A stretch of DNA of 63,140 nt. It comes from Desulfovibrio sp. (GTDB taxonomy: Bacteria; Desulfobacterota; Desulfovibrionia; Desulfovibrionales; Desulfovibrionaceae). Position numbers and translations under genes: made by a program. The stretch lies in assembly GCA_017415765.1 (NCBI GenBank), contig JAFQED010000009.1:1-63140 (forward strand). The letters are read 5' to 3'. This document shows, one piece after another, positions 39,990 to 61,972 of this stretch. The notes under the pieces are model-generated. The model made no database searches. It worked only from the letters and a program-made list of their open reading frames with translations, and was not told where the DNA came from. How positions within the stretch are numbered: the stretch's first letter is position 1; each line of letters opens with the position of its first letter.

Positions 39990-40649
39990 ATGCCTCTGAA
40001 CGATACCTACATCCGTAGTCTGAAACCCGATCTCAAACCCCGCAAGTACTTTGACGGCGGTGGCCTGTTCCTCTTCATCCCCACCAGCGGCAGCAAATTG
40101 TGGCGCATGGCCTACAGGTTCAACGGCAAGAGCAAGCTACTCAGTTTCGGGGAATACCCCACGGTCTCTCTCAGGGATGCCAGAGCGCGGCGGGAGGAAG
40201 CCAAACAACTCATTGCCAAAGACATTGACCCGTCCGAACACAAGCGGGAGGTACGGCAGGCCAAAATCGATGCCGAACGCAACAGCTTTGAAAACATCGC
40301 CAGGGAATGGCATGAAACCCGTATGGCCGAATTTTCCGAAAAGCATCAGGGAACGGTCATGTATCGGTTGGAAACCTATATTTTTCCGGCCATCGGCAAG
40401 GTCGGCATCACCAAACTGGAAACGCAGGACATCATGGCTGTGGTCAAGCCTTTGGAACAGAAGGGAAACTACGAGACATCACGCCGCCTGCTCCAGATCA
40501 TCAGTCAGGTCTTCCGCTATGCGGTCATCACCGGCAAGGCCAAACACAACATAGCGGCGGATATGCGAGGTGCGTTGCGTCCGCGTAAAGTCACGCATCG
40601 GGCGGCCCTTGTCGAACCGGAAAAGGTCGGGCAGCTCACGCGCAACTAG
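39990..40649 (+). pseudogene. Truncated P4-type tyrosine integrase
   Basis: A 219-residue remnant of a P4-like integrase, which is normally ~400 residues. The N-terminal arm-binding domain (LNDTYIRSLKPDLKPRKYFDGGGLFLFI and LLSFGEYPTVSLRDAR, about residues 4-60) and the core-binding domain (about 100-200) are intact. The frame stops after EPEKVGQLTRN, just where the catalytic domain with the Arg-His-Arg-Tyr residues should begin. It cannot be a recombinase on its own. It lies 240 nt after tRNA-Glu in the usual orientation for an island integrase. Confidence 0.88.
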
Positions 40650-40676
40650 ATAACTCACTGTAATTACACAACAATC
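40648..40676 (+). promoter_or_regulatory. Phage promoter-class element, copy 1
   Basis: Degenerate -35 box GATAAC (AA at 40652-40653), a 17-nt spacer and CAATCT as -10 (40672-40677). It is the first and weakest copy of the CTRAAY-N17-CAATAT element, located just after the integrase remnant. No gene follows within 250 nt. Confidence 0.35.
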
Positions 40677-40797
40677 TAAAAATAAAATGTGACGTATGTG
40701 CCCATATGCCCAAAGGAAACCATGGATAAGCCTGTGTCCAACCTATTGGAATAGCAGGAAAAAATAGAAAGTTCTATATTTGGCGATAAAAGTCGCT

Positions 40798-40814
40798 ATG
40801 TGCCCTGGGCACAT
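40798..40814. promoter_or_regulatory. Perfect palindrome, possible operator
   Basis: ATGTGCCC-T-GGGCACAT, 8-bp arms around one central base. The half-site ATGTGCCC recurs 102 nt upstream (40696-40703), followed by ATGCCC. This looks like a repressor-binding site pair in the control region ahead of the antirepressor gene. Confidence 0.5.
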
Positions 40815-40832
40815 GGCCGCACGATACAGCAG

Positions 40833-40860
40833 AACCCCCTGAATTTTCAGGGGGTTTTTT
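40833..40860 (+). terminator. Strong Rho-independent terminator
   Basis: AACCCCCTGAA (40833-40843) pairs with TTCAGGGGGTT (40846-40856), followed by a run of six T. It ends whatever is transcribed from the 40.65-40.83 kb gap, which holds no gene I can see, and insulates the antirepressor promoter. Confidence 0.88.
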
Positions 40861-40877
40861 GTTTTCTGGCGAATTGA

Positions 40878-40906
40878 CTGAATTTTTGTGGGACTACGGA
40901 CAATGT
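40878..40906 (+). promoter_or_regulatory. Phage promoter-class element, copy 2 (antirepressor gene)
   Basis: CTGAAT (40878-40883), 17-nt spacer, CAATGT (40901-40906). It lies directly behind the terminator at 40833 and 37 nt before the antirepressor ATG. Confidence 0.6.
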
Positions 40907-40942
40907 TCTGCTGAAGGCAGAGACATCCACAAGGAGAAAAGG

Positions 40943-41698
40943 ATGGATTTGAAAATTTTTGGAAACAATGACTTCGGGAATATTCGAGTTCTGGAGAAAG
41001 ACGGTGAGCTTTGGTTTGTCGCCAAGGATATGATTAGAGCTCTGGGTTATGAGTCTAGTTCCAAGATGGGCATGCTTCTCAAACATGTACCGAAGGAATG
41101 GAAGGGGGTAAATCTGATTTCCACCCCTGGCGGAAATCAGGAAATGGCAACACTTTCCGAGCAAGGCCTCTACTTTTTTCTGGCGAGGTCAGACAAACCA
41201 AAAGCCCTGCCTTTCCAAAAATGGCTGGCTGGTGAGGTGCTACCAACCATACGGAAGCACGGCGCATATCTTTCTCAACAGAAGGTCAAGGAAATCCTGA
41301 CAGACCCGGACACCATCATACAGTTGGCTATGACGATCAAGGAGGAGCGAAACCTCCGCATTGCAGCTGAGGAGGAGCGGGACATCGCAGTGGGTCGCCT
41401 GGCGCAGTACGAGAAGCAAATCAAGAACGACTCTGACTACATGCCTGTGCGAGGCATCTCATGGCTACAGGATTACTTCGAGGACGTGAATGCCATGTAC
41501 CAGCAGGTGGGTAGGCAACTCAGTACGCTTTCACGAATGATGGGCTATCCGATCCACAGGAACTCCTATTGTGCCCACCCGTCAGGGCGCAGGTCGTATC
41601 ACCTGGATGTAATCAGCAAGCTTAAGGATCAAATTGCCAGCAACGATGTCCTGCTCGCGCAGTTCCGTCGCAAGTATGGTTGCGGGAGTATCCAATGA
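40943..41698 (+). CDS. BRO-N type phage antirepressor
   Basis: A 251-residue phage regulator. The N-terminal Bro-N domain (FGNIRVLEKDGELWFVAKDMIRALGY, then EWKGVNLISTPGG and the LARSDKPKALPFQKWLAGEVLPTIRKHG segment) is clear over residues 1-115. A charged helical linker (EERNLRIAAEEERDIAVG) leads to a C-terminal domain that may mediate DNA or protein binding. The ATG at 40943 follows AAGGAG; the frame from 40859 runs through the promoter. Such proteins often lift repression or tune lysis-lysogeny. The stop overlaps thyX. Confidence 0.85.
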   Translation: MDLKIFGNNDFGNIRVLEKDGELWFVAKDMIRALGYESSSKMGMLLKHVPKEWKGVNLISTPGGNQEMATLSEQGLYFFLARSDKPKALPFQKWLAGEVLPTIRKHGAYLSQQKVKEILTDPDTIIQLAMTIKEERNLRIAAEEERDIAVGRLAQYEKQIKNDSDYMPVRGISWLQDYFEDVNAMYQQVGRQLSTLSRMMGYPIHRNSYCAHPSGRRSYHLDVISKLKDQIASNDVLLAQFRRKYGCGSIQ

Positions 41699-42426
41699 AC
41701 ATCAAGAAAACAGGAACAGGCAAAGTCATTCTCCTGGCCGGGGGCGGCAAGGTCTACACCGACATAGCAGCACGCTTTGTACGCAGTGAGCGTGACATAG
41801 AGGAAATCGCAAACTCGCCCTACTCCGCCCAGATCGTCAAAAACATCCTGTCAGCCGGACACAAGGCCGCTCTTGAGTTCGACTACTTCATCTTCGGCGT
41901 AGAAGGCTTCTCACGGGTTACGGAAACGCAGCTCGTGCGAAAGCGAATGGCATCCTACCTCATCAAGTCAGGCCGTGCAGAGCTCGGAGGGGCTCGCAGT
42001 TATTCGCTGGTCATGCCGGAAGAGATTTCGAGTTACCCGGGAGTAGCAGAATGGCTCAAGCAAGGCCGTGCTCTCTACGAGCGCATGGTAGCAGACGGAA
42101 TCCCGGAAGAAAACGCCAGGTACATCAAGCCGCAGGCCACAGAGTTCAAGGCCATTATCGGTATGAACGCCCACGCCCTGCATGATTGGTTTTCCATACG
42201 CTGCTGCATGAACGCCCAGAATGAGATCCGTGATCTCGCCTGGAAAATGCTCAAGCTGTGCCGTGAGGCTGCCCCTGACCTGTTTGAGGGGGCCGGGCCT
42301 AACTGCGTACAGCTTGGATACTGTCCAGAGAATGAGAGGCAGCACAAAAGTTGTGCACATGGTGTGTTGACTAAAAATAAGGCTCTCCGAGTGTTAAAAG
42401 AATATAAAGGAGGTGCTGATGACTGA
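41695..42426 (+). CDS. thyX: Flavin-dependent thymidylate synthase ThyX
   Basis: ThyX makes dTMP from dUMP using FAD and methylene-tetrahydrofolate. The 243-residue protein has the signature RHRxxSxxxxSxR as RKRMASYLIKSGR (residues 82-94), with the central His replaced by Lys. A second conserved region FSIRCCMNAQNEIRD (166-180) matches the family's Arg- and Gln-containing helix. The ATG overlaps the antirepressor stop by 4 nt. It fits with dUTPase and ribonucleotide reductase downstream as a phage dNTP-supply set. Confidence 0.92.
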   Translation: MNIKKTGTGKVILLAGGGKVYTDIAARFVRSERDIEEIANSPYSAQIVKNILSAGHKAALEFDYFIFGVEGFSRVTETQLVRKRMASYLIKSGRAELGGARSYSLVMPEEISSYPGVAEWLKQGRALYERMVADGIPEENARYIKPQATEFKAIIGMNAHALHDWFSIRCCMNAQNEIRDLAWKMLKLCREAAPDLFEGAGPNCVQLGYCPENERQHKSCAHGVLTKNKALRVLKEYKGGADD

Positions 42427-42784
42427 AGAATTGCCTGATGCGGCAATATTTGACCACTCATCGCACATTGAATTGTGGGATTGGCTGGCAAAGAATCCTG
42501 AATGTATGAAATTGGATTGGCCTGGCTGGTATACAGGAGTGCATGTAGATGAGGCAGACTGCTTTGCCTGTAAATTTGTAATGCAGTTTTACCAGAACAA
42601 TTTGGAAAATTGTAATGCTCACTGCCCTCTTGAATGGCCAGGAGGCAACTGTGTAACGCCAGACCACACAGGCCTTTTTAACAGGTGGTTTAATCTCTTT
42701 GGTAGCAGTGATTTGGAAACCAGAGCACAACTCGCCAGGCAGATTCGCGATCTTCCGGTCAGGGCTGGGGTAAAATGTAAGTAA
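42419..42784 (+). CDS. Small Cys/Trp-rich phage protein
   Basis: A 121-residue protein of unknown role. It contains a cysteine cluster (CFACKF, then CNAHCPLEWPGGNC) that could bind a metal, and many Trp and Asp residues. It overlaps thyX by 8 nt and has AAAGGAGGT immediately upstream. I recognise no family. Confidence 0.7.
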   Translation: MTEELPDAAIFDHSSHIELWDWLAKNPECMKLDWPGWYTGVHVDEADCFACKFVMQFYQNNLENCNAHCPLEWPGGNCVTPDHTGLFNRWFNLFGSSDLETRAQLARQIRDLPVRAGVKCK

Positions 42785-42810
42785 CGATCAAAATAAACAG
42801 GAGGTATCTG

Positions 42811-44877
42811 ATGCTTGATTTTCACAAATTCAAAATAGCGGTTGCAAAGCAGTTCAAGGAGATGAGCGAAAAAGGCCCGTTGTTTGAGACAACGGCAGAC
42901 AGGGATACGCTTATCAATACGTATCTTGATTCATTCCCGGAAGGAACAAACAAAGTATATATCACAAATCGTGAGTATGATTGCGGCACCTGCAAGAACT
43001 TCATTCGCATTGTAGGCGGAATCGTCAGTGTGGATGAAAACCTAAATGTACACACCATATGGGATGTGGAAGCCAGTGACATCGATCCGGCATTCAAAAC
43101 AGTTGCTGCTGCTCTTGCCAGTGAGGTGCGCAAACACGGCATCCTGAACAAATTCCTGCACTTTGAATCCGTGGCCGGAGTGAATGAGAACCACCAAATG
43201 CTTGCAGACGGCAGAGTTAAGAAGTGGGAGCACTTTTTTGTGAACATACCTGCCGCATACAGATACAACAAGAACAGGCAATCTCGCGGCAGCATTCATG
43301 GTGATTCTGCTGCAACGCATGATGTCTTCAAGCGTGGTTTGGATGAGCTGACCATGGATGCAGTGGATACAGTCATTGAACTCATACAGCAGAACTCGCT
43401 GTATCGCGGTCAGGAGTTTCTGCATTTGGTGCGGGAATTTCGCGGTTTCATGACAGCTTATGCTGGCCTGCCCAGTGAGAAGAAAGACCTCTTTGTATGG
43501 AGAAACGTGTATGGGCCTGACGGAGAGCTCTCTAGCCGTGGGTCGCTGCGCATCCGCAATACATCTATTGGCACACTGCTGGTCAATCTCTCGGAAGGCA
43601 TGGATCTGGAAGACGCTGTTGCCCGCTTTGAAAGCATTGTTGCCCCGCAAAATTATAAGCGGACTACAGCACTTGTCACCCAGGCAATGGTGGATCGGGC
43701 CAAAGAAAAGGTCGATGAACTCGGTCTGTCCTCGGCTCTGCAACGCCGCTATGCCACGATAGAGGATCTGGACATCAACAATGTCCTTTTCCTGAATCGT
43801 GAAGCAGTCACCATTGAAGAAAAAACCGGACAGACAGACCCGTTCTCTGGTGTCGCCAACAAGGGGGCCGGGGATAGGCAGTTCAGCAAGGTCGAGGAAA
43901 TAACCATCGACAAGTTCATTGCTGACATCCTTCCTCGGGCACGAAACATAGAAGTTATGGTCGAAAACAGGATGTTGGGAAACATGATGTCCCTGCTTAC
44001 TGCTTCCGACCCGACAGCAGGAAAGCTCTTCAAGTGGGATAACCCATTCTCCTGGTCGTATAATGGTGATGTAACGGACTCCATAAAGGAGCGTGTCAAA
44101 AAGGCAGGTGGCAATATAGATGCGGAGCTTTGCTGCAGGTTGTCATGGAATAATTACGATGACCTTGATCTGCACATGGAAGAAAGAACACAGAACGGTA
44201 CAAATACCATCTTCTACGCAGATAAGAAGTCGTTAATTTCAAAAGGATGCCTTGACGTTGATATGAATGCCGGTCGTGGAACAACGCGTTGCCCGGTAGA
44301 AAATATCTATTACGGTGCAATCAAAAACATGCCTGACGGTGTGTACAAACTGCTTGTGCATCAATACTCCAAGCGGGAAACTTCTGATGTAGGATTTGAT
44401 GTGGAAATAGACATCCTCGGAGAAGTCCACTCCTACAGCTACTATAAGGATGTTAGAAATAACGAGCGCATCCCTGTAGCAGAAATCCATAAGACAGATG
44501 CAGGCATACGGGTTGTGGATCTTTTGAAGCCGTCCACTGCCGTCAATGATGTATGGGGTATCAAGACACAGGTATTCACACCGGTAGTCGCCATTACGAA
44601 GTCACCAAACTATTGGGATTGTGCGCAGGGTAACCAGCATACCTTCTTCTTTCTGAAAGGCTGCAAGCCGGACATGCCAGCTCGTGGATTCTACAACGAG
44701 TTTCTGTCTGGCGGGCTGCATGAGCATCGGAAGGTATTTGAGATTGTTGGTGGCAAGATGCGGGTTGGTGAAGTCCAAAATCCGCTCTGTGGCGTAGGCT
44801 TCTCTTCCACAAAGCGTAGCAGCATCGTAGCCAGGGTCTCTGGCAACTTCACAAGACTTGTGAAAATCATTTTCTAA
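42811..44877 (+). CDS. Large phage protein with DUF2135/YfaP-like domain
   Basis: A 688-residue protein of unknown function. The N-terminal third has a CGTCKNFIRIVGGIV segment and a His-rich stretch (KFLHFESVAGVNENHQML). Around residues 435-540 lies a beta-rich region resembling DUF2135/YfaP: LSWNNYDDLDLHM, GCLDVDMNAG, ENIYYG, GVYKLLVHQYSKR and VEIDILGE. Such domains occur in von Willebrand-factor-A-associated surface or ternary-complex proteins. No signal peptide or membrane helix is visible. The neighbour at 44889 starts 11 nt after its stop and may encode a partner. A GGAGG site precedes the ATG. Confidence 0.8.
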   Translation: MLDFHKFKIAVAKQFKEMSEKGPLFETTADRDTLINTYLDSFPEGTNKVYITNREYDCGTCKNFIRIVGGIVSVDENLNVHTIWDVEASDIDPAFKTVAAALASEVRKHGILNKFLHFESVAGVNENHQMLADGRVKKWEHFFVNIPAAYRYNKNRQSRGSIHGDSAATHDVFKRGLDELTMDAVDTVIELIQQNSLYRGQEFLHLVREFRGFMTAYAGLPSEKKDLFVWRNVYGPDGELSSRGSLRIRNTSIGTLLVNLSEGMDLEDAVARFESIVAPQNYKRTTALVTQAMVDRAKEKVDELGLSSALQRRYATIEDLDINNVLFLNREAVTIEEKTGQTDPFSGVANKGAGDRQFSKVEEITIDKFIADILPRARNIEVMVENRMLGNMMSLLTASDPTAGKLFKWDNPFSWSYNGDVTDSIKERVKKAGGNIDAELCCRLSWNNYDDLDLHMEERTQNGTNTIFYADKKSLISKGCLDVDMNAGRGTTRCPVENIYYGAIKNMPDGVYKLLVHQYSKRETSDVGFDVEIDILGEVHSYSYYKDVRNNERIPVAEIHKTDAGIRVVDLLKPSTAVNDVWGIKTQVFTPVVAITKSPNYWDCAQGNQHTFFFLKGCKPDMPARGFYNEFLSGGLHEHRKVFEIVGGKMRVGEVQNPLCGVGFSSTKRSSIVARVSGNFTRLVKIIF

Positions 44878-44888
44878 GGAGGTTCAAC

Positions 44889-46172: not shown

Positions 46173-46529
46173 ATGCTGACAGAACGAGAAAAGAAATGGC
46201 TGGAGGAACGTCAGAACATGGACGCTCTCGCTCCATGTTGCAGAAAGCAATGTTCATTCTTAATTTATAAGGAAGATTGCATAGACTGTAACATGTTTTT
46301 GCGAGGAGTAAGATGGTGTCCATTTTCAACCGACTGGCGGGACGCTGCAGAATTTGAAGCCCGTGTAGTAGTAGAGGTAGCCAGACTATATGGGAGCTTG
46401 GCGAATATCAGTATTTGTCCAAATAAAATGGGAGTAATCAAGCAAGCCAGAATTAACGTGGAAAAAAAATGGATGTTGAAAAATGCCTACAAAATCAGAA
46501 TTGAAATGGCTGGAGGAACGGGAACATAG
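46173..46529 (+). CDS. Small phage protein, KWLEER/DAAEFEARV family, member 1
   Basis: A 118-residue protein beginning MLTEREKKWLEERQN with a cysteine-rich middle (CCRKQC, CIDCN, WCPFS) and then DWRDAAEFEARVVVEVARL. The same frame of motifs recurs in the next gene, so the two are paralogues. AGGAGTAGG precedes the ATG. The function is unknown; a small metal-binding module is likely. Confidence 0.65.
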   Translation: MLTEREKKWLEERQNMDALAPCCRKQCSFLIYKEDCIDCNMFLRGVRWCPFSTDWRDAAEFEARVVVEVARLYGSLANISICPNKMGVIKQARINVEKKWMLKNAYKIRIEMAGGTGT

Positions 46530-46767
46530 ATTACATTGGAATGGGGTGTATAGCAATCCGTGCCTTTCAGGTGCTTGGAAAATTTTTCTTGCTCCTGACT
46601 ACAAGGACGCCGCAGAATTTGAGGCCCGTGTGTCTGAGTTGTTGACAGGGGCTTTGTACTTAACACCCTGCAATACTTGTTTATATAGCACAGAAAAAAT
46701 CTCGTGCAGGACTTGCCGTCTTAAGTATGCTCGGATTGAGGCGGAATACTTACTGGAGAGAGAATGA
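46483..46767 (+). CDS. Small phage protein, KWLEER/DAAEFEARV family, member 2
   Basis: A 94-residue paralogue of the preceding gene: SELKWLEEREHR, DYKDAAEFEARVSELL and a C-terminal CNTCLYSTEKISCRTC zinc-knuckle-like pattern. It overlaps member 1 by 47 nt and member 1 reaches it without an obvious separate ribosome site. Its stop overlaps the next ATG (ATGA). Confidence 0.65.
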   Translation: MPTKSELKWLEEREHRLHWNGVYSNPCLSGAWKIFLAPDYKDAAEFEARVSELLTGALYLTPCNTCLYSTEKISCRTCRLKYARIEAEYLLERE

Positions 46768-49162: not shown

Positions 49163-49196
49163 AGCCGGGCAGCCACAAGCTGCCCGGCTAAATTTT
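49163..49196 (+). terminator. Terminator overlapping a phage promoter element
   Basis: AGCCGGGCAGC (49163-49173) pairs with GCTGCCCGGCT (49179-49189) and is followed by AAATTTTTG. The 3' arm and T-run overlap the -35 box of promoter copy 3. Confidence 0.85.
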
Positions 49197-49216
49197 TGTG
49201 GGCATTGAGACAATAA
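49189..49216 (+). promoter_or_regulatory. Phage promoter-class element, copy 3
   Basis: CTAAAT (starting 49188), 17-nt spacer, CAATAA (49211-49216), about 28 nt before the ATG at 49244. Confidence 0.6.
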
Positions 49217-49243: not shown

Positions 49244-49540
49244 ATGTTGTTTTTCAAAAAGAAAAAGCAGGCAGATGATTACGGCGCAGTCCAACACTTC
49301 AGTGTAGAAAATGTTCTTAATCTGTTGGACAGAATGACCATAATGAACATTGGTGATATAGTCTGGTTCGTAGCGGCAGGTAAAAAATGTCGTGGCTATG
49401 TCATTGATATGCCAACACGCGAATCTAGCTACAGGCCTGTCGTACAGGAGATCAATGACAATGGCACGATTGGTCCGTGTACATATGTAGCCCCACAGTA
49501 CATAATCAGCATAGAACATAGAAATATAGGTATGAGGTAG
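49244..49540 (+). CDS. Unknown small phage protein
   Basis: A 98-residue protein with a very basic start (MLFFKKKKQ) and a predicted beta-rich body (GDIVWFVAAGKKCRGYVID). No family recognised. GGAGG precedes the ATG. It is first in a three-gene unit with the membrane protein at 49545. Confidence 0.65.
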   Translation: MLFFKKKKQADDYGAVQHFSVENVLNLLDRMTIMNIGDIVWFVAAGKKCRGYVIDMPTRESSYRPVVQEINDNGTIGPCTYVAPQYIISIEHRNIGMR

Positions 49541-50235: not shown

Positions 50236-50263
50236 AGCAACCAGCTGGTATAAGGTTGTGAAG

Positions 50264-50304: not shown

Positions 50305-50333
50305 CTGAACCATTTTTGCTGCGGAAACAATAT
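50305..50333 (+). promoter_or_regulatory. Phage promoter-class element, copy 4 (nrdJ)
   Basis: CTGAAC (50305-50310), 17-nt spacer, CAATAT (50328-50333). The -10 box falls in the loop of an 8-bp hairpin TGCGGAAA/TTTCCGCA (50320-50341), so the leader or the promoter itself may be regulated by a dyad. Confidence 0.65.
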
Positions 50334-50360: not shown

Positions 50361-52586
50361 ATGGAAATGCCCTGTGATTTACAAGATCCAAAAATTTCAA
50401 AAAACACAGAAATCGTTCTGCGAAAGAGATACCTGCGCAAGAACATCGCAGGTGATGTTGTAGAAACGCCAAAACAATTTTTCTGGCGGGTGGCCTCTAC
50501 CATTGTTGAAGTTGAACGAGGTTCAAGCCAGGAAAAGGAGGAAATAGCTCGGACATTCTACAATATGATGGTGAACAGGGATTTCCTGCCAAACTCCCCT
50601 ACCCTCATGAATGCTGGTACAGAACTGGGGCAGCTTTCTGCATGCTTTGTTCTGCCTGTGGAGGACTCTATTGAGGGGATATTTGATGCGGTAAAATATG
50701 CAGCCATGATCCATAAATCTGGTGGAGGAACCGGATTTTCGTTTTCCAGACTGCGTCCGAAAGACAGTAAGGTTGGAAGTACTGGCGGTGTTGCGTCCGG
50801 ACCTCTTTCTTTCATGAAAGTTTTTGACGTTGCAACAGAACAGATAAAACAAGGCGGAAAAAGGCGTGGGGCAAATATGGGCATATTGCGTGTTGACCAC
50901 CCAGACATTAAAGACTTTATACACGCAAAAGAAGAGGAAGGTCAACTATCTAATTTCAATTTATCAGTTGGTCTGACAGAATCTTTTATGGTCGCAGTAG
51001 AGAACAATGCAGATTATGACCTTGTCGATCCAACAACACAAGAGTCTGCAGGCAAGCTTAATGCCAAAAGTATATTTGATCTGCTTGTCAAGAAAGCATG
51101 GGAATCTGGTGACCCAGGAATTGTATTTCTTGACCGTATAAACTCTTTTAACCCAACTCCTGAGCAGGGTGAGATTGAAGCTACAAACCCCTGTGGGGAG
51201 CAACCCCTTCTTCCATTTGAGGCTTGCAACCTCGGTTCAATAAATCTTGCGAAGTTTTACAATCATAATACAAATGATATAGACTTCTCAAGATTACGAG
51301 CAACAGTACATAATGCTGTTCGCTTCCTTGATAACGTCATTGACGTATCCAGATTCCCAATTGAGCAGATAGCCAACAATGTCAAGAAGAACAGAAAGAT
51401 AGGCCTTGGCATCATGGGCTTTGCTGATCTGCTTTTCCAGATGGGTATCCCATATGACTCCGAAGAAGGTATACGAAAAGCCGAAGAAGTGATGAGCTTC
51501 ATTCAGGCCGAAGGGTATAACGCATCAAGACTGCTGGCGAGCGAACGCGGCGCATTCCCGTCGTTTGATACCTCAATATTCGCAGACCTCACGCCTATTC
51601 GTAACGCAACTGTAACCACTATTGCCCCAACCGGAACGCTTTCCATCATCGGAGAGTGTTCATCTGGCATTGAGCCAATCTTTGCACTCTCCTTTACCAG
51701 AAACATCATGGATGGACAAAAGCTCACAGAGGTGAGCCCCTATCTGGAAAAAGCCCTGAAGGATGCCGGCCTCCACACGCCGGAAATCCTGGCTGAGGTA
51801 GCAGCCAAGGGCTCGATCCAGCACATCGAAGCCATACCGGAGCGCATTCGCAGGGTTTTTGTCACTGCCCTGGACATAGCTCCTGAATGGCATTTGCGTA
51901 TGCAGGCCGCTTTCCAGAAGTACACGGACAATGCCGTTTCCAAGACTGTAAATCTCCCAAACAGCGCGACGGAAAAGGACATCCACGACATTTATGTCAT
52001 GGCCTACAAGCTCAACTGCAAGGGTGTCACTGTGTACCGTGACGGCTGCAAGAGCGTCCAGGTGCTGACAACAGGCGAAGGGCAGAAACGACAGGAAGGC
52101 TCAACGCCGCAGGAACCTGCCCCTGAAAGCACGATCCGCAAGGTACGCCCGGACATTGTCCAGGGCTTTACCCAGAAAGTACAGACTGGACTCGGTACCA
52201 TGTACCTCACAGTGAACGAGGTAGACGGTAAGCCGTTTGAGGTATTTGCCACCATCGGCAAGTCTGGTCGTTCCACAACAGCCAAGGCCGAAGCTATTGG
52301 GCGTCTGGTCTCTCTTGCTTTGAGATCAGGCGTTGGCGTTCGTGAGGTGGTAGAGCAAATCAAGGGCATCGGTGGCGAACATCCGATATTCCGCAGCAAG
52401 GGACTGACCCTCTCCATACCGGATGCCATCGCCTGGGTTCTGGAAAAACGCTACCTCCGGGATAACCGGGTGGCTGGGGAGCTGGCACTTGGAGAAAAGC
52501 CTTGTTGCCCGGAATGTGGGGAACCCCTGAAGTTTCAGGAGGGATGCCTGTCGTGCACATCGTGTGCGTATTCCAGATGCGGATAG
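50361..52586 (+). CDS. nrdJ: Adenosylcobalamin-dependent (class II) ribonucleotide reductase
   Basis: NrdJ reduces ribonucleotides to deoxyribonucleotides using a B12-derived radical, with no small subunit and no oxygen need. The 741-residue protein has SACFVLPVEDSIEG, the substrate-site NPCGEQPLLPFEACNLGSINL, PTGTLSIIGECSSGIEP and, at the end, a TSCPD domain followed by a cysteine tail (CCPECGEPL and CTSCAYSRCG) for re-reduction. The ATG at 50361 follows AAAGGAG. An anaerobic, B12-making host such as a Desulfovibrio could supply the cofactor; cobU is in the same window. Confidence 0.95.
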   Translation: MEMPCDLQDPKISKNTEIVLRKRYLRKNIAGDVVETPKQFFWRVASTIVEVERGSSQEKEEIARTFYNMMVNRDFLPNSPTLMNAGTELGQLSACFVLPVEDSIEGIFDAVKYAAMIHKSGGGTGFSFSRLRPKDSKVGSTGGVASGPLSFMKVFDVATEQIKQGGKRRGANMGILRVDHPDIKDFIHAKEEEGQLSNFNLSVGLTESFMVAVENNADYDLVDPTTQESAGKLNAKSIFDLLVKKAWESGDPGIVFLDRINSFNPTPEQGEIEATNPCGEQPLLPFEACNLGSINLAKFYNHNTNDIDFSRLRATVHNAVRFLDNVIDVSRFPIEQIANNVKKNRKIGLGIMGFADLLFQMGIPYDSEEGIRKAEEVMSFIQAEGYNASRLLASERGAFPSFDTSIFADLTPIRNATVTTIAPTGTLSIIGECSSGIEPIFALSFTRNIMDGQKLTEVSPYLEKALKDAGLHTPEILAEVAAKGSIQHIEAIPERIRRVFVTALDIAPEWHLRMQAAFQKYTDNAVSKTVNLPNSATEKDIHDIYVMAYKLNCKGVTVYRDGCKSVQVLTTGEGQKRQEGSTPQEPAPESTIRKVRPDIVQGFTQKVQTGLGTMYLTVNEVDGKPFEVFATIGKSGRSTTAKAEAIGRLVSLALRSGVGVREVVEQIKGIGGEHPIFRSKGLTLSIPDAIAWVLEKRYLRDNRVAGELALGEKPCCPECGEPLKFQEGCLSCTSCAYSRCG

Positions 52587-52678: not shown

Positions 52679-52707
52679 CTAAATCTTTTTGGATTCGGAA
52701 ACAAAAA
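52679..52707 (+). promoter_or_regulatory. Phage promoter-class element, copy 5
   Basis: CTAAAT (starting 52680), 17-nt spacer, CAAAAA (52702-52707). It overlaps an inverted repeat TTCCGAA/TTCGGAA. It lies ahead of the HTH gene at 52753. Confidence 0.5.
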
Positions 52708-52752: not shown

Positions 52753-53022
52753 ATGGAGACACAGCAGAATTTTACTGAAGCCATTGCCCGCATATATAAG
52801 TGTACTGGCGTAAAGACACAGACTGCTCTGGGTAAGGTGCTTGGCCTGAAGCAGTCCTCTGTCTGTTATGGTTTCCAGGCAGAAACCATACCGTACAGAT
52901 GGCTATATATCCTCCTGCGGGACAGGAACATAAACCCCGTCTGGATTTTGCACGGGGAACCGCACAAACGCTATGTAATTCCTTCTGAAACTACCGAGCT
53001 GGAGGTAGAAACTACATGCTAA
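52753..53022 (+). CDS. Cro/CI-like HTH protein
   Basis: An 89-residue protein with a helix-turn-helix: TALGKVLGLKQSSVCYGFQ over about residues 25-43, in the style of phage CI N-terminal domains, then a PYRWLYILLRDRNINPVWIL segment. It could repress the phage promoter class or bind the palindromes seen here; neither is shown. Its stop overlaps the dUTPase ATG by 7 nt. Confidence 0.7.
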   Translation: METQQNFTEAIARIYKCTGVKTQTALGKVLGLKQSSVCYGFQAETIPYRWLYILLRDRNINPVWILHGEPHKRYVIPSETTELEVETTC

Positions 53023-53474
53023 AAGAGTGGATGCGGAAAGCAGTACTACTACCTTTCAAAAAATGTCGGCCTGACGCCATAGAACCGAAATATGCGCATA
53101 GCGGAGACAGCGGTATGGATCTGTACTGCCCGGAAAGAGTCTGGATTCCAGGGCAGAAAGCAACGCTCATAGATACGGGCATCGCCTTCGATATTCCCGA
53201 CGGGTACGAGATCCAGGTCAGACTGAGGTCGGGAGTAGCCCTGCGTTATCCTATCGTAATGCCAAACTCTCCAGGTACCATCGACAGCGGGTATCGAGGC
53301 AGCATCGGCATCATAGTTTTCAACGTAAGCAACAATGGATTCTACATCGAGGCAGGGGAACGTATCGCTCAGGCTGTTCTCTGCCCTGTGGAGTTCGCCA
53401 TGCTGAGAGAGGCGGAGAGCCTTTCTGATACTGAACGCGGTGCTGGGGGATACGGACACAGCGGAAGGTTCTAG
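53016..53474 (+). CDS. dut: dUTPase
   Basis: Trimeric dUTP pyrophosphatase, which keeps uracil out of DNA and provides dUMP for ThyX. The 152-residue protein has all five motifs: DSGMDL (31-36), RLRSGVAL (69-76), NSPGTIDSGYRGSI (84-97), RIAQAVL (116-122) and RGAGGYGHSG (141-150). The last is shortened and ends at RF, so the usual flexible C-terminal phenylalanine-containing tail is short but present. Confidence 0.94.
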   Translation: MLKEWMRKAVLLPFKKCRPDAIEPKYAHSGDSGMDLYCPERVWIPGQKATLIDTGIAFDIPDGYEIQVRLRSGVALRYPIVMPNSPGTIDSGYRGSIGIIVFNVSNNGFYIEAGERIAQAVLCPVEFAMLREAESLSDTERGAGGYGHSGRF

Positions 53475-53930: not shown

Positions 53931-53956
53931 AACTCCCAAAACTAAACTTCTTGGGA

Positions 53957-53986
53957 ACTAAACTTCTTGCAGACTCGAAACAATAT
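53957..53986 (+). promoter_or_regulatory. Phage promoter-class element, copy 6 (tRNA array)
   Basis: CTAAAC (AA at 53961-53962), 17-nt spacer, CAATAT (53981-53986), 7 nt before the mature tRNA-Ser start. The -35 box and its flank (AACTAAACTTCTTG) are duplicated 16 nt upstream at ~53940. Confidence 0.65.
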
Positions 53987-53993: not shown

Positions 53994-54083
53994 GGAATGG
54001 TGGCCGAGAGGTCTATGGCACCGGTCTTGAAAACCGGAGTCGGTGCAAGCTGACCGCAGGTTCAACTCCTGTCCATTCCGCCA
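53994..54083 (+). tRNA. tRNA-Ser (TGA), phage-encoded
   Basis: A 90-nt class II tRNA with CCA. Acceptor GGAATGG pairs with CCATTCC; the anticodon loop CTTGAAA gives TGA; a long variable arm is present. Confidence 0.93.
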
Positions 54084-55922: not shown

Positions 55923-55937
55923 GACTGTATACTGGTG

Positions 55938-56425: not shown

Positions 56426-56449
56426 GTACCAAGTGAATTTTCTGCCCAA

Positions 56450-57667
56450 TCAGTCATACTGCCGCCTGATAAAATTGGACAGCAGGGGCACGGCAAGCGA
56501 GTATTTACCAAACCTGTTCCTGAAAACAAGCCCGCGATCAGACAGGGTATTGAGCATCTGGATCACATGGCTCGGACTGAAGGGCTTGATGGGCAACTCC
56601 TTGGACTTGTTAGAAACTTCCATGCCAGTGAACTCATCATCGCACGAATCCAGCGCAACAACGGCGCGTAGTAAGTCTTTTTGCCTGTCTGTTGTCTGAG
56701 ACCATCTCCCCTGGAAAAAGTCGGAGTCCAACTTCCTGATTATGTTCTCTATAGGAATTGTTGGGGTTTCATTTGCAGTCACCTTCGCAATCCACAAGTC
56801 GTACACTTCCTTGCAGATATACTGTAAAAAATACGGATAGCCACCAGAAACTGTGACAATAGTATTTACAGAGTTTTCGCCAAACTGGATAGGATGTCCT
56901 TCCACCGGACGCAAAATGGCTTCTCTGGAAGCTGCTTCATCCAGTCTGGACAGCGTCATGACATGGAACATGCGTTCGGCATAGGTCCTTGCTTCCACAA
57001 GCTTGGGAAACAGCGTTGGCAGACCAACAAAGAGCAGCATGAACGGTATACCCTTACGTTGCAGGGATTGAAAAACCTCAAGCAGCGCAGAAAGTGGGTA
57101 CTGTGCCTCCTGCTTGTGATCCGAAAGATTCTGGGCCTCGTCATAAGCAAAGACGATTCCTCTGACCTCAGTGTTTTTCAGGAGTTTCCAAATCTGCTCC
57201 AGGACATGCTTCAGCTTATCCGAGACGAGACCCGGTGTGGCCCTGTACATGGATTCCAGGGTTTCATAGCTGAGAGGAAATCTTTGGACTTCGGAATCAC
57301 CCAGGTATCCAATTTTCTGATGCTGGGCCTGCTCAAACAATACAGAAGATGCCGCAGCAGCTGTATCTACCAGCAGGCGCATGGCAATGGCGTCTTCTGA
57401 AATGCAGGCAGACTCAGACAAATCTGTACCCGCCCAGAGCCAGCCACTTTCAAGAGCAATGGGCTTCAATGATTCCAGCAGGACAGTCTTTCCCACACCG
57501 CGCAGCCCGGTAATAACGGCATTATCCGTAATCGTTTCCTGAGAAAGAAGTTTGCGCATTTCTTCCTGTTCAGCAGATCGGCCCGCAAGGTACGGTGGCA
57601 GATGCCCGGCACCCGGTCGGAATGGATTTCTGTACATGCTGGTTTTTGGCGTATTGGCAGTTTGCAT
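56450..57667 (-). CDS. AAA/STAND-type ATPase
   Basis: A 405-residue P-loop protein. Walker A GLRGVGKT is at residues 54-61 and Walker B around GIVFAYDEAQNL. Later sensor-like segments (LLFVGLPTLFPKL, MTLSRLDEAASREAI) and a C-terminal winged-helix-like part (AVVALDSCDDEFTGMEVSNK, SPSHVIQMLNTLSDRGLVFR) resemble archaeal-ATPase/Orc-type or STAND proteins. As minus-strand cargo inside a phage region it may serve defence or exclusion; this is inference from position. GAGGA precedes the ATG. Confidence 0.8.
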   Translation of the reverse strand: MQTANTPKTSMYRNPFRPGAGHLPPYLAGRSAEQEEMRKLLSQETITDNAVITGLRGVGKTVLLESLKPIALESGWLWAGTDLSESACISEDAIAMRLLVDTAAAASSVLFEQAQHQKIGYLGDSEVQRFPLSYETLESMYRATPGLVSDKLKHVLEQIWKLLKNTEVRGIVFAYDEAQNLSDHKQEAQYPLSALLEVFQSLQRKGIPFMLLFVGLPTLFPKLVEARTYAERMFHVMTLSRLDEAASREAILRPVEGHPIQFGENSVNTIVTVSGGYPYFLQYICKEVYDLWIAKVTANETPTIPIENIIRKLDSDFFQGRWSQTTDRQKDLLRAVVALDSCDDEFTGMEVSNKSKELPIKPFSPSHVIQMLNTLSDRGLVFRNRFGKYSLAVPLLSNFIRRQYD

Positions 57668-57692
57668 GGCTGTGTCCTCAGATTTTATGTCA

Positions 57693-57720
57693 TAAATTTA
57701 GTATTATAAGTAAATTTAGT
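57693..57720 (-). promoter_or_regulatory. Direct-repeat operator over the ATPase promoter
   Basis: TAAATTTAGT occurs at 57693-57702 and 57711-57720, 18 nt apart, flanking the minus-strand TATAAT-like ATTATAAG core at 57703-57710. A TTGACT follows further upstream. This looks like a repressor site controlling the ATPase gene. Confidence 0.5.
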
Positions 57721-57753
57721 CAATACACATTTTAGGAAAGGTAACTCTCCAAG

Positions 57754-57783
57754 GTGAACTATTCAGCCCTACTTTGACAATAT
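57754..57783 (+). promoter_or_regulatory. Phage promoter-class element, copy 7
   Basis: GTGAAC (AA at 57757-57758), an 18-nt spacer and CAATAT (57778-57783), about 37 nt before the ATG at 57820. Divergent from the ATPase promoter. Confidence 0.55.
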
Positions 57784-57819
57784 TTGTGAATACGCATCAC
57801 AAACCGCAGGAGAACACCA

Positions 57820-58785
57820 ATGATCACCAAAATCGGAAAAGAAATCGTACATATAGCAAACCTTCTGGCCAAGGCTCATGAGTTCAAATACAGGAATCTT
57901 GAGAAGTACGCGGCAACCAGATACAAGGAATTACTGCCTGGGCTGTCTCCTGAATCCAAGACAAGGCTTTCCGACGTGGTTAAACCTCTGGCGGAGGAGC
58001 TGGCTGGGATTCGTCGTGGGACAGAGAATATGATAGCCCGTGCTGGGTATACCATGAGGCCTGCTACCACTGATGAGGAGATTAACACGGCACTAGGCGG
58101 AGGTGGTGCTGTGACTGATCACAAAACAAAAACAGTACTGTATCTTGATCCCCAAATGCTTAAAGGGCGTAGGGAGTATAGGAAAGATAAAAGGCTTATT
58201 CCATTCTACAACACAGCTCGTAAGAATTATGGTTATGTAAATGAGGGGCTATTGCGCCATGAAGCTTTCGAGGCAGATGAGTATACAAAAGCCAAGAGCC
58301 GTGGAGTAACGCCATTTTTAGAAGTTTTTACAACTCAGAATCTCAACAAGCCAGATATGAAAAGATGGAGAAATGGTATAGGTATTACAGACAAGGTATT
58401 GGAAAACCAGACAACTGATCCGTACTACATAAAACGTCTTGGCAGTACCGAGAATTTGGATAGCTTCTTTGATGAGCCTGTAGGTAGGCATGTAAATCTG
58501 AAGGTACTCGCGAAGGAGACTGAGTTTCTTAATAAGTCATTTTACAACCATATGGCTAATTCTATTAAAAATTATAGGAGACGCTATGGTGAGGCAGACA
58601 TACTTGCAGATAATATGGATTTAGATAGGAGCAGAGGAGATATTTACTCTACTCTGTTGACAAAGAAAGACTACAAAAACATGGCTACTCCAAGAAAAAA
58701 TGTGTTGGATCATAGAATAGAACGAAATAGTGATGACATAAATGAGATCTATGACGTACATAGATCAACAATAAAGAGGAGGTAA
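57820..58785 (+). CDS. Unknown phage protein with HEAFE motif
   Basis: A 321-residue basic protein. The N-terminal third is helical; the middle has GLLRHEAFEADE, an HExxE-like pattern that in some phage proteins precedes a metallopeptidase fold, but no second metal ligand is clear. The rest is rich in Lys, Arg and Asn. It has no membrane segment. GGAG precedes the ATG. Function unknown; codon use is distinctly A+T-rich. Confidence 0.65.
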   Translation: MITKIGKEIVHIANLLAKAHEFKYRNLEKYAATRYKELLPGLSPESKTRLSDVVKPLAEELAGIRRGTENMIARAGYTMRPATTDEEINTALGGGGAVTDHKTKTVLYLDPQMLKGRREYRKDKRLIPFYNTARKNYGYVNEGLLRHEAFEADEYTKAKSRGVTPFLEVFTTQNLNKPDMKRWRNGIGITDKVLENQTTDPYYIKRLGSTENLDSFFDEPVGRHVNLKVLAKETEFLNKSFYNHMANSIKNYRRRYGEADILADNMDLDRSRGDIYSTLLTKKDYKNMATPRKNVLDHRIERNSDDINEIYDVHRSTIKRR

Positions 58786-58789
58786 TAAT

Positions 58790-59275
58790 ATGCTAGGCCC
58801 AACATCAACAACCGTTGGACTTGCCATACCATATGATACTGACCTTGAGAATATTGAAACTTATAGGGGATACTTAAAAAACTGCTCTAAATCTACATAC
58901 CATACAATATCAAGAACAGCGTTAAGGCTGTTGGACCTACCTGATGCAGAGCTTCACAAGTTTTTGGAAGAATCCAAGCTCATGCGATGTTGCTGCAGAA
59001 TATCGCAGGTTGATATGTATATTGTTGGTAGTAGTAGGCTAAAAGAGCTAGGTCTTCCAGACTTTGATGTACGCTTAGCCAGGCCATACCAGGAAGACGT
59101 GGAAGATATGAAATCATATAGAGCCTATCTTGTGCGATGTAGCAAATCAAAAGTGCAGGTTATAGCTAATTCTGCTATACGTATGCTACAATTATCGGAT
59201 GAGGAGCTTGAGCCATTTCTGCTGGAGTCCAGAGCCCTCGGTAAGTACATCAAAATTGAACAAAAAGACATGTGA
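58790..59275 (+). CDS. Phage protein made of two repeated ~50-residue units
   Basis: A 161-residue protein with an internal duplication. Residues ~15-65 (DTDLENIETYRGYLKNCSK, TALRLLDLPDAELHKFLEES) match ~100-150 (QEDVEDMKSYRAYLVRCSK, SAIRMLQLSDEELEPFLLES). A cysteine triplet (RCCCR) lies between the units. The repeats look like small helical hairpins. GAGGAGG precedes the ATG. No family recognised. Confidence 0.7.
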   Translation: MLGPTSTTVGLAIPYDTDLENIETYRGYLKNCSKSTYHTISRTALRLLDLPDAELHKFLEESKLMRCCCRISQVDMYIVGSSRLKELGLPDFDVRLARPYQEDVEDMKSYRAYLVRCSKSKVQVIANSAIRMLQLSDEELEPFLLESRALGKYIKIEQKDM

Positions 59276-59308
59276 AGCCATGTGCCACTCACAGGAGTAC
59301 ACAATATC

Positions 59309-59596
59309 ATGCAAAATGAAAAACTTTTGAAAGTGTATATGGATATGTTCCGAAAATTCTCTAGGGAATGGGCACGCTCATCGGATAAATATAAGGATCG
59401 TAACCTGAAACGTGACTTCAGTACAGTAATGATGCAAATGCACACCTTTGTAAAACGCTACGTTGGTATGCAGAAGTATCCTGAAATGAACCCCAAACTT
59501 GAGAAATACCTGATAATCAATAACTACGTTACAAAAAATGCCAGAGGTGGATTTGATGTGTCTTCAGCTAGGTATAGAGAGTATCGTGGAGACTAG
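59309..59596 (+). CDS. Unknown small basic phage protein
   Basis: A 95-residue, Lys/Arg/Tyr-rich protein (KVYMDMFRKFSREWARSSDKY). The ATG at 59309 is 13 nt after an AGGAG; a GTG at 59282 is in frame but has no site. It ends 4 nt inside the stop of the converging minus-strand gene. Confidence 0.55.
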   Translation: MQNEKLLKVYMDMFRKFSREWARSSDKYKDRNLKRDFSTVMMQMHTFVKRYVGMQKYPEMNPKLEKYLIINNYVTKNARGGFDVSSARYREYRGD

Positions 59597-60123
59597 GTGT
59601 TATTATTGCTATGATTCTTTACTTCCGGGTAAGCCTTTTCCAAGAGGTAAAAAGTAATACCCCAAGATTCCGGCAAGATGTCACGGTACATACTTGTATA
59701 CATGACAGATTTAGCTGCTGGTGATGCTGCAAAGTCCATCATATTGACGCGGAGTTCTCCAAGAGCTGCGAGCATAGCAAAATATGAATTGGCTGCCATC
59801 TCATATTCTGAGACACTTGTACCTATGGAAGAAAGAAGTTGTACGGGGCGCAACTTTGAAATCCATTTGAATATAAAAGCTGCACGCTTATGGTTGTCAG
59901 GAATTGTGATGCAGTGAAATGGACTCCATCGTTCCAAATCTATCATATATGATATACATGCGTGACAAAGGGTTGGCATGCAAAGTACGACTCTCCGATG
60001 ATTTTGGAATGGGGGAGAACTCTCCATCATATTAAACATCTTGGCAAGACGTGCAGCTAAATTTTTGGCCTTATCGCGTCTTGCCAAGATATGTTGCTGT
60101 GCTGCCTTGCCATGAGATGACAT
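59593..60123 (-). CDS. Unknown phage protein, second gene of a minus-strand module
   Basis: A 176-residue protein, mostly helical with several aromatic residues and a few cysteines (RVVLCMPTLCHACISYMIDL). No family recognised. It starts directly at the stop of the gene at 60123-60326 (TAATG), so the two form an operon. GGGAG precedes the ATG. Confidence 0.6.
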   Translation of the reverse strand: MSSHGKAAQQHILARRDKAKNLAARLAKMFNMMESSPPFQNHRRVVLCMPTLCHACISYMIDLERWSPFHCITIPDNHKRAAFIFKWISKLRPVQLLSSIGTSVSEYEMAANSYFAMLAALGELRVNMMDFAASPAAKSVMYTSMYRDILPESWGITFYLLEKAYPEVKNHSNNNT

Positions 60124-60326
60124 TATTTGAACTCCCAGAAACTTTCAGGAAGCTGCGAAAATGCCTCAATAGCTTGTATCTGGCGATCAAGAATTACATT
60201 GTCCGGCTCTACATCTCCAGAATTATGAATACCAGATTCCATAAACTCAACTAAGCGTTCATTACTAAATATAGAATCCAGCTCTTTTTCCTGATCGGCA
60301 CTCAAAACCGGAATTGCAGTTCCCAT
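60123..60326 (-). CDS. Small protein, first gene of a minus-strand module
   Basis: A 67-residue acidic protein (MGTAIPVLSADQEKELDSIF, later SGDVEPDNVILDRQIQAIEA). The ATG at 60326 follows GGAGGGTGGC. Size, acidity and leading position resemble antitoxins or immunity proteins, but no DNA-binding motif is visible, so this is only a suggestion. Confidence 0.6.
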   Translation of the reverse strand: MGTAIPVLSADQEKELDSIFSNERLVEFMESGIHNSGDVEPDNVILDRQIQAIEAFSQLPESFWEFK

Positions 60327-60374
60327 AAGCCACCCTCCAAGTCCTACTGGATTGGGTGTAAGTATACCCATCCA

Positions 60375-60415
60375 TCTATATGGTACTATTGCCAAATGTC
60401 AGACAGCTTGACATT
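60375..60415 (-). promoter_or_regulatory. Promoter with overlapping palindromic operator for the 60.1-60.3 kb module
   Basis: On the minus strand: CTGACA (plus 60397-60402), 16 nt, TATAGA (plus 60375-60380). A 7-bp inverted repeat AATGTCA/TGACATT (60395-60401 and 60409-60415) covers the -35 box, so a repressor probably blocks this promoter. Confidence 0.5.
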
Positions 60416-60522
60416 GTAAAAAGCCATATGCCTAAAATGCACACAACGGGCAAGTGACGGCACAAAAAATTCTTTTTGTCAATCTCGATTTTGTATTGAC
60501 AAGGGAAAATACTCTCAAAGCA

Positions 60523-60607
60523 GGAGGTCAACCCGAAACCGGAAACCTAGCCCCTAAAAGACATGACCTCTGACGTAGCGACTAAGAAGTGCCACTTACG
60601 GTGGCAT
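60523..60607 (+). ncRNA. Possible structured RNA between opposing genes
   Basis: A 7-8-bp helix GGAGGTCA (60523-60530) / TGACCTCT (60564-60571) encloses a C-rich interior with a repeated GAAACC, and a second hairpin TGCCAC/GTGGCA (60590-60595 and 60601-60606) follows. TTGACA lies upstream at 60495-60500. No reading frame uses this stretch. It could be a small RNA or an RNA-level control element; I match it to no known family. Confidence 0.35.
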
Positions 60608-60622
60608 ACCCGTGCAGCACAG

Positions 60623-61840
60623 CTATACCTCTACTCTATCAATAATCTGTCGCGCACGGCACCGAACAAGCTCAGTCATAGCACGAATGGTGCCCTGCTC
60701 CACGTATACTTCCGGGTGCGGCTTCAATTTCAGAGTAAGGCATTGCTGTAACCTGGGAATATGTCTCGGCCTGGCAAAAAGCCGGGCCTGGTCATCGAAG
60801 GACAGGAAAGCAGCCGTTGTTCTGGAAGCCAACCCTTCAATGTCCAAATCCACAAGGCTGCCCAGCCCTACGCCAAAAGAGAATCCGTTGTCGTACAGAG
60901 GTGCCGGGCGTAACAGCTCGCCGCTATCCGTGTCGAACAGATAGCCGAAATTCCCCAAGTGCCTGTCCTGGTTCAATATCAGGGCATCAAAGACCATCAT
61001 GTCCTCAAACGCCTCAGCTCCGAAAATCTGGCCAAGTTCGTACTGTGTAGATGGATTTTTCAGGCTATCCAAGGTGAGTTTTTTGAGGCTCACCCCCTGG
61101 TGCAGGAAGTATGTTTTAGCATCGATGAGCCCGATATGTTCATCAGTAAACAGTCTGCAGGTACAGACGTTTTCGTGGCTGCCATCAGCATGACCATATA
61201 CTGCAAGCTCATAGGGGATGTGTTTTACCCCGAACTGCCTGCATACCTGAGAGGCAAACCATTCAGCTGTTGCCTGTGATAGTCCGTCCATGCCAGCGGT
61301 GTAATTATCTGCCTTGCGGAGAAAGATACCGCTATCATCCAGCCCCCAGGCTTTTTTCAGAGCTCCTTTGGAGGTGAACTCGGGAGAACTCAGTCTGAGG
61401 CTGGAATACTTGCTGCCAGTAAGACCAAAGACCAACTCCCCGACAGCCTCATCAAACCTGTTTCGATACAGGCTAACTTCAGACCATGCTCGTCTGTCAG
61501 TAAGCTCTGTTACCCAAAAAGTGTCATTGAGCGACAGCAGGTTACACAGCCTGGCATAGCGCATGGGGTCTTTCGGGTCGAAACCCTCAAGCATTTCAAT
61601 GCGGGCAAAAAGTTTTCGCCCAAGAGGAGATGTACGCCGATCTATCCAGTCAAGCAGTAGCTTGTCTGTGATTTCGCCTGCCTGCAGCTCAAATGGAAGA
61701 ATCCTGTCCAGATTCTGGCATACGGACAAAATACGCAGGTCGTAGCTGGAATATTCCTTACCGGAAACAGTCTGTGCTTCTTTCCGCATTTCAAAGCGGA
61801 TAAGCTCGCTATCCTTGTTCTTCAGAACGAATAGGGACAT
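60623..61840 (-). CDS. HipA-like kinase
   Basis: A 405-residue protein with a HipA-type kinase C-terminal domain. Catalytic segments are LILNQDRHLGNFGYLFD (Asp and Asn of the catalytic loop) and LLRPAPLYDNGFSFG (metal Asp). The N-terminal ~150 residues are not obviously HipA_N. HipA phosphorylates GltX in E. coli; the target here is unknown and no HipB-like antitoxin is adjacent. ATG 61840 is chosen because it lies after a GGAGG and downstream of a good promoter, whereas ATG 61888 lies inside it. Confidence 0.8.
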   Translation of the reverse strand: MSLFVLKNKDSELIRFEMRKEAQTVSGKEYSSYDLRILSVCQNLDRILPFELQAGEITDKLLLDWIDRRTSPLGRKLFARIEMLEGFDPKDPMRYARLCNLLSLNDTFWVTELTDRRAWSEVSLYRNRFDEAVGELVFGLTGSKYSSLRLSSPEFTSKGALKKAWGLDDSGIFLRKADNYTAGMDGLSQATAEWFASQVCRQFGVKHIPYELAVYGHADGSHENVCTCRLFTDEHIGLIDAKTYFLHQGVSLKKLTLDSLKNPSTQYELGQIFGAEAFEDMMVFDALILNQDRHLGNFGYLFDTDSGELLRPAPLYDNGFSFGVGLGSLVDLDIEGLASRTTAAFLSFDDQARLFARPRHIPRLQQCLTLKLKPHPEVYVEQGTIRAMTELVRCRARQIIDRVEV

Positions 61841-61873
61841 CGCAGAAAGCCTCCAGCTGGAAACATCTGGATA

Positions 61874-61902
61874 ATCATAGCATTTCAAAGACAGGCCCTC
61901 AA
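61874..61902 (-). promoter_or_regulatory. Host-type promoter of the HipA-like gene
   Basis: On the minus strand: TTGAGG (plus 61897-61902), 17 nt, TATGAT (plus 61874-61879). It abuts the plus-strand phage element of copy 8, so divergent transcription is expected. Confidence 0.6.
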
Positions 61903-61903
61903 C

Positions 61904-61930
61904 TAAACTATTCCGCAGCGTCCGACATAG
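61904..61930 (+). promoter_or_regulatory. Phage promoter-class element, copy 8 (FEN gene)
   Basis: CTAAAC (61903-61908), 17-nt spacer, CATAGT (61926-61931). A dyad CCGACA/TGTCGG (61922-61939) overlaps the -10 box, as at nrdJ. Confidence 0.55.
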
Positions 61931-61972
61931 TTTTGTCGGGCGTAATTTTTTCCAAACAAAGGAGCACTAGCC

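Follow-up and report, generated by a model that had tools for sequence, protein, structure and literature searches.

Which RNA polymerase serves a phage-like element whose gene leaders repeat one bipartite motif? The question is raised by a Desulfovibrio sp. contig of 63,140 nucleotides (nt), JAFQED010000009.1 of assembly GCA_017415765.1, referred to as the window, which is the whole of contig C74 in an assembly of 74 contigs and 2.1 Mb. Its guanine-plus-cytosine (GC) content is 58% over positions 1-39,950 and 47% from position 40,651 on, and this low-GC second part, which continues to the contig end, is phage-like: it encodes a BRO antirepressor, ThyX, a ribonucleotide reductase, a dUTPase, a Dda-like helicase, a FEN-like exonuclease, three tRNAs, and a repressor-like helix-turn-helix (HTH) gene (phrog_4 match, E value 1.2e-5). 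An initial annotation had listed eight copies of a putative promoter, CTRAAY-N17-CAATAT, in this part. Seven of these copies withstood analysis and very likely represent a real promoter-like element, which is probably read by a phage sigma factor on the host core polymerase.

A bipartite motif in seven leaders of the phage-like part

The consensus comprises CTRAAY, two free bases, TT, and then CAATAT, located 17 nt (once 18 nt) after the first box; the boxes are termed here the -35 and -10 halves. The first site, CTGAAT-N17-CAATGT (40878..40906), ends 36 nt before the BRO/antirepressor gene 40943-41698 (Bro-N Pfam match) and lies directly downstream of a terminator-like hairpin at 40831-40858. 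The second, CTAAAT-N17-CAATAA (49188..49216), is positioned 27 nt before the gene 49244-49540 and overlaps the end of another such hairpin (49163-49189), whereas the third, CTGAAC-N17-CAATAT (50305..50333), is an exact match 27 nt before the ribonucleotide reductase gene 50361-52586 (Ribonuc_red_lgC). CTAAAT-N17-CAAAAA (52679..52707) lies 45 nt before the HTH gene 52753-53022, which is followed by the dUTPase gene (53016-53474). CTAAAC-N17-CAATAT (53958..53986), again exact, ends 7 nt before tRNA-Ser (53994-54083), and the same leader contains a tandem pair of CTAAACTTCTTG copies with a 16-nt offset (53942-53970). GTGAAC-N18-CAATAT (57754..57783) is found 36 nt before the gene 57820-58785, divergent from a minus-strand AAA ATPase gene (56450-57667). 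The last and weakest site, CTAAAC-N17-CATAGT (61903..61931), lies 41 nt before the FEN-like exonuclease gene 61973-62989 and divergent from a minus-strand HipA-like gene; its -10 half is contained in a terminator-like hairpin (61918-61943).

All seven sites are intergenic and on the plus strand, as had been reported, and the single 18-nt spacer belongs to site 57754. The reported closeness to gene and tRNA starts likewise holds: six start codons lie 27 to 45 nt past the -10 box and tRNA-Ser lies 7 nt past it, distances that suit promoters; transcription starting 7 to 8 nt downstream of the -10 box would thus place +1 at the 5' end of this tRNA. The site previously given as 53957 is real, with its start at 53958. 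The eighth proposed copy, at 40648 (40646 in the matrix scan), falls where an integrase gene is cut off, reads CTAGAT...CAATCT, and was rejected, since its score of 8.5 lies within the background. Individual positions are conserved to different degrees: CTRAAY is present in six of seven sites, the seventh having GTGAAC, and its R is A in only four; T occupies column 8 in six sites and column 9 in all; the -10 box starts with CA throughout and ends with T in five sites and A in two.

Statistical support and recurrence in related elements

A matrix of 18 columns was built from the seven sites and scored leave-one-out, yielding 22.5 (40878), 22.4 (49188), 24.9 (50305), 20.5 (52679), 20.4 (53958), 20.0 (57754), and 17.2 (61903). 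The next distinct best place on either strand of the 63 kb scores 10.3 with spacers of 17 to 18 nt, and if a 16-nt spacer is permitted as well (positions 1-39750 and 40650-63140), nothing else reaches 12; first-order simulation predicts 0.034 matches of at least 17 per strand in the phage part. Among the phage-part frames that follow a gap of 40 nt or more, seven of the 12 on the plus strand have a site scoring over 22 (full-matrix rather than leave-one-out scores, one frame overlying tRNA-Ser) and the other five stay below 5, while all five on the minus strand score below 2. An extended 29-mer with up to two mismatches occurs at seven places in the 2.1-Mb assembly, five of them on one strand of the window, compared with none for the reversed pattern, and no comparable one-contig cluster is present among the listed matches from 79 genus genomes.

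The initial annotation had proposed a motif search with comparison to shuffled sequence. De novo expectation maximization (EM) recovered the motif unprompted, missing one site and making two false calls (the shuffled controls had fewer seeds), and the loose pattern CTRAAY-N17/18-CAW was enriched, although only modestly, with seven plus-strand matches where shuffles averaged 1.9 (P = 0.005); a single match is genic, and site 57754 is missed. This modest enrichment speaks for chance or a selection effect in A+T-rich leaders, as does the fact that strict CTRAAY-N17/18-CAATAT is limited to 50305 and 53958, the other five sites having one mismatch (three sites), two (one site), or three (61903). 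Yet the leave-one-out scores and the recurrence in relatives described below leave chance with hardly any probability, and 179 other viral loci (2.64 Mb, including several near-identical contigs) yielded only 12 matches of at least 17, with no more than two in any locus. The claim of a recurrent phage promoter element is well supported.

Related elements were found in three genomes of the same genus, termed G050, G005, and G016. Contig C59 of G050 shares FEN (59% identity), dUTPase (57%), and helicase (44%) with the window; contig C2 of G005 shares helicase (52%) and integrase (28%); and contig C9 of G016, which corresponds to IMG/VR record 2791354756_000002, shares ThyX (61%) and helicase (34%). 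A second G050 contig, C78, with a GpA-type terminase match, has primase (40%), sigma factor (34%), and reverse transcriptase genes in common with G016 and is probably a further piece of the G050 phage. Matrix matches of at least 17 number three on the plus and none on the minus strand in G050 (0.013 expected per strand) and two and none in G016 (0.064 expected), all copies lying on the gene strand. The loose pattern is also enriched in G050 (8 versus 2.1 in C59 and 5 versus 0.84 in C78, some matches not being intergenic); no enrichment was observed in G005 or in host DNA. Two placements are orthologous. One, before the HTH gene, is shared by the window phage and G050, the G050 site being weaker and 107 nt upstream; the other, shared by G050 and G016, is situated between the reverse transcriptase gene and the RuvC-like gene.

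DNA-level searches of the phage collection for near relatives returned five records only, each matching over tRNA-Pro or tRNA-Thr; searches of named phages with three proteins gave many records, all below 60% identity and none a close relative; FEN had a single 30% match among genome contigs, in a Synechococcus metagenome-assembled genome; and the helicase alone had a single weak match among viral contigs.

Instead of a promoter, the motif might be an operator or another functional element in the phage DNA or RNA, for example a site for a repressor or a signal for processing or replication, and both the repressor-like HTH gene and the terminator-like hairpins overlapping two sites would suit such a role. 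However, neither box is an inverted repeat of the other, which disfavors an operator, and the single-strand orientation, the 17- to 18-nt spacing, and the 7 nt to the tRNA 5' end suit transcription starts; we therefore regard a nonpromoter function as very unlikely.

Comparison with host promoters

Neither box matches the sigma-70 form TTGACA-N17-TATAAT. The initial annotation assigned TTGACA/TATAAT-like boxes to the host half instead, but in neither half do sigma-70-like pairs clearly outnumber those in shuffled sequence; in the phage part, counts were 28 versus 27.4 and 1 versus 3.1 in shuffles.

A likeness absent from the initial annotation concerns the sigma-28 (FliA) promoters of the host. 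The E. coli consensus is given as TAAAGTTT-n11-GCCGATAA in PMC2859248, and the sigma-28 sites of the genus (CTAAA-nnn-TTTT-N11-CGATAA) resemble the phage motif in the CTAAA -35 half, the T's after it, and the spacing. Specifically, the phage -35 half has TAAA and the T-rich tract, a partial match rather than the full TAAAGTTT. It differs in that its third base may be A or G and that C or T follows TRAA, and the motif is clustered in the phage half only. The -10 half is distinct, being CAATAT rather than GCCGATAA with its core CGATAA: CA replaces CG at all seven sites. By comparison, each of the 10 zero-mismatch matches to CTAAA-nnn-TTTT-N11-CRATAW in the 79 genus genomes has CGATAA; the spacing of this pattern was preset to that of the phage, so that it is uninformative on the spacing preferred by sigma-28 in the genus. 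One-mismatch matches include both forms and say little, since in many genomes they are about as frequent as those of the reversed control. One zero-mismatch match lies in the host of the window at C14:10092, before a gene judged by eye to be fliD-like.

Host FliA might therefore itself read the phage promoters, coupling phage expression to motility. Its gene is present in the host of the window, and the -35 half and spacing are as in the sigma-28 sites of the genus, including C14:10092. This explanation is nevertheless unlikely in view of the G of CGATAA, missing from every phage site and present in every zero-mismatch genus match, and of a PF04542 search that found no FliA counterpart in G050, a genome listed as 100% complete whose phage bears the motif.

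A phage sigma factor as the candidate reader

Seven related phages, namely those of G050 and G016 and five IMG/VR records obtained by primase or FEN similarity, encode a sigma-70-family factor. The PF04542 search gave sigma-like matches in G016:C9 and G050:C78, where the proteins comprise 305 and 382 amino acids, respectively, and match phrog_351 (E values of 4e-19 for G016 and 5e-12 for G050), whose name, RNA polymerase sigma factor, is an annotation and not a tested function. For region 2, the Pfam model gave 22.3 bits in both proteins against a cutoff of 24, and the genome search gave 24.7 and 24.8, above it; for region 4 (cutoff of 24.1), the G016 protein is above with 27.6 bits and the G050 protein below with 15.7. 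The predicted model of the G016 protein (mean predicted local distance difference test of 64.8, predicted template modeling score of 0.38) has fold matches to sigma factors. Regions 2 and 4 thus assign the protein of these relatives to the sigma-70 family. For the FliA/WhiG subfamily, the scores of 32.9 and 36.7 bits are below the TIGR02479 cutoff of 189.6; the likeness to FliA resides in the region 4.2 helix. The G016 sigma factor had no tblastn match at an E value of up to 1e-3 among 50,697 phage records, and sigma alignments recovered solely the G016 record itself from viral contigs. Two other sigma candidates were discarded: G004:C119 is, by eye, an RpoD-like fragment, and the weak match in G000:C57 is a frame of 67 amino acids.

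In the region 4.2 alignment, which also contained a host Rpo sequence, host FliA reads GRVSQLHSQALNRLR, the G050 protein SRISQIHTSAISKLR, and the G016 protein SRISQIHTRAVEKLR, whereas the five other phages have WVFTIEKKANRKLY, RVFQIEAQAKKKIK, WIFQLEKRSTSKLN, WIFQLQRRALGKVR, and RVCQYSKNGLYKLK. The -35-reading helix is FliA-like (SRISQIHT) in G050 and G016 and not in the five others, and the CTRAAY motif is clear only in these two of the seven phages. This helix-motif association is a lead from a small sample of related phages. Among the readers originally offered (a modified host polymerase, a phage sigma factor, or an activator), a phage sigma factor fits best, because relatives encode one and its region 4.2 helix is FliA-like in the two clear motif carriers. 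The window phage, a large phage or an element resembling a prophage, presumably has such a factor as well. Host core RNA polymerase carrying it would recognize the flagellar-type -35 half (CTRAAY then T's) through region 4.2 and the nonflagellar -10 half, CAATAT, 17 nt away, through region 2; its synthesis would activate, as a single regulon, genes for nucleotide metabolism, tRNA, regulation, and DNA processing.

T4 middle promoters use the activator MotA, and a phage activator of this kind, bound over the CTRAAY box, might here assist the host sigma-70 holoenzyme. CAATAT retains the A at position 2 and the T at position 6 of the sigma-70 -10 box, the -35 half is unlike TTGACA, and the tandem CTAAACTTCTTG pair at tRNA-Ser would accommodate an activator. 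We consider this rather doubtful, given that the constant distance of 17 to 18 nt from box to box corresponds to the arrangement of sigma regions 2 and 4, that the -35 half is the same as in the sigma-28 sites of the genus, and that relatives have a phage sigma factor with a matching helix.

A second element shared by the sigma-bearing phages

A second promoter-like element, found across the family, has the consensus TGTTATAAG and the form TGTTATAAGnAnnTR. In seven related phages (records L147, L146, L149, L150, and L004; G016:C9; G050:C59 and C78), GTTATAAG is present in 40 intergenic copies on the gene strand and in none on the other strand. Every one of the 40 copies is preceded by T, and at start-site distance T (78%) is followed by G or A (97%); G follows TGTTATAA at 40 of 43 such places, compared with two of 10 where the sequence lies in coding DNA of the plus strand. 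The window phage has one clear copy, the variant TGGTATAAG at 50246..50254 on the plus strand, upstream of the ribonucleotide reductase gene; it scores 15.3, and none of approximately 2 million simulated positions reached 14. Two further copies occur in L176.

As TGTTATAAG is constant although the sigma helices differ, the phage sigma factor could read this element, the CTRAAY element, or both; the helix match leads us to rate the link to CTRAAY higher.

Several observations weigh against the assignment of the CTRAAY motif to a phage sigma factor. The sigma-bearing phages also have TGTTATAAG in common, which offers the factor another possible target, and the helix-motif link is based on seven related phages with two positives. 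The G016 protein scores higher with RpoD/RpoS-type models than with FliA_WhiG. Of sigma factors, the window yielded host RpoD only, and no phage sigma factor or phage primase was found in the assembly, the window phage extending to the contig end. As for the motif itself, the loose pattern in G016 is not enriched (4 versus 4.6 expected) and only two copies are strong, the two orthologous placements in G050 reach scores of just 13.9 and 8.3, and EM on the upstream regions of G050 and G016 missed it, converging on a terminator-like sequence and on TGTTATAAG, respectively. In addition, V397 (plus strand) and V399 (minus strand) have one match of at least 17 each, with 0.4 and 0.08 expected per strand.

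Relation to known phage promoters

Promoters read by phage sigma factors are known as a kind. Salmonella phage 7-11, for example, has late promoters of the form GTAAtg-(16)-aCTA, which the phage sigma factor gp47 reads (PMC8948821). They resemble the present motif in being two-element promoters before phage genes and unlike the host consensus; they differ in both box sequences, the -35 half here being of a host flagellar type. Their reader, host core polymerase with a phage sigma factor that has region 4, would by analogy correspond to the one proposed here. Like them, the window motif is a recurrent bipartite consensus before phage genes that departs from host sigma-70. The middle/late promoters of phiEco32, read by gp36, are likewise unlike sigma-70 sites but consist of a single element (PMC8948821), tAATGTAtA, read by a sigma factor without region 4, a layout nearer to the TGTTATAAG element.

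Among the titles and abstract openings listed, we met no report of CTRAAY or TGTTATAAG as a phage promoter, which does not prove absence, nor of a flagellar-type -35 half combined with another -10 half or of the link to a varying helix; the main text of PMC6006170, on Desulfovibrio prophages, never mentions a sigma factor or promoter.

Annotated phage sigma factors are common, and promoters are known for few of them. Here, promoter set, sigma family, and varying recognition helix can be read together, making sigma-promoter coevolution testable in vitro, and a flagellar-type -35 half in a phage regulon would raise a concrete question of crosstalk between infection and motility. More speculatively, the -35-reading helix of the phage sigma factor may have converged on, or come from, host FliA and been joined to a -10-reading part of its own. 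If so, the phage promoters would be half flagellar, the -35 half would track the helix within the family while TGTTATAAG stays constant, and the -35 half, or an anti-sigma factor recognizing region 4, could become a point of interference between phage transcription and the motility regulon.

Other features of the window and its relatives

The integrase gene 39990-40649, located after tRNA-Glu, has matches for the arm-binding and central domains and none for the catalytic domain; GC content drops beyond its cut end, and the gene is either a remnant or marks an assembly junction. The minus-strand AAA ATPase and HipA-like (60623-61888; HipA_C below cutoff) genes lack the motif and may be lysogeny or accessory genes; the leader of the former contains TATAAT at 57708 on the minus strand. 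Two small adjoining genes, 46173-46529 and 46483-46767, start alike by eye (KKWLEER and LKWLEERE), possibly reflecting a duplication. Both motif-bearing relatives encode a family-A DNA polymerase with an N-terminal uracil-DNA-glycosylase-like match (L130:8249-10296 and L105:16161-19058, both minus strand), the G050 copy ending early, and both have a reverse transcriptase gene before the RuvC-like gene (L130:1109-2254 and L105:9713-10867, both minus strand).

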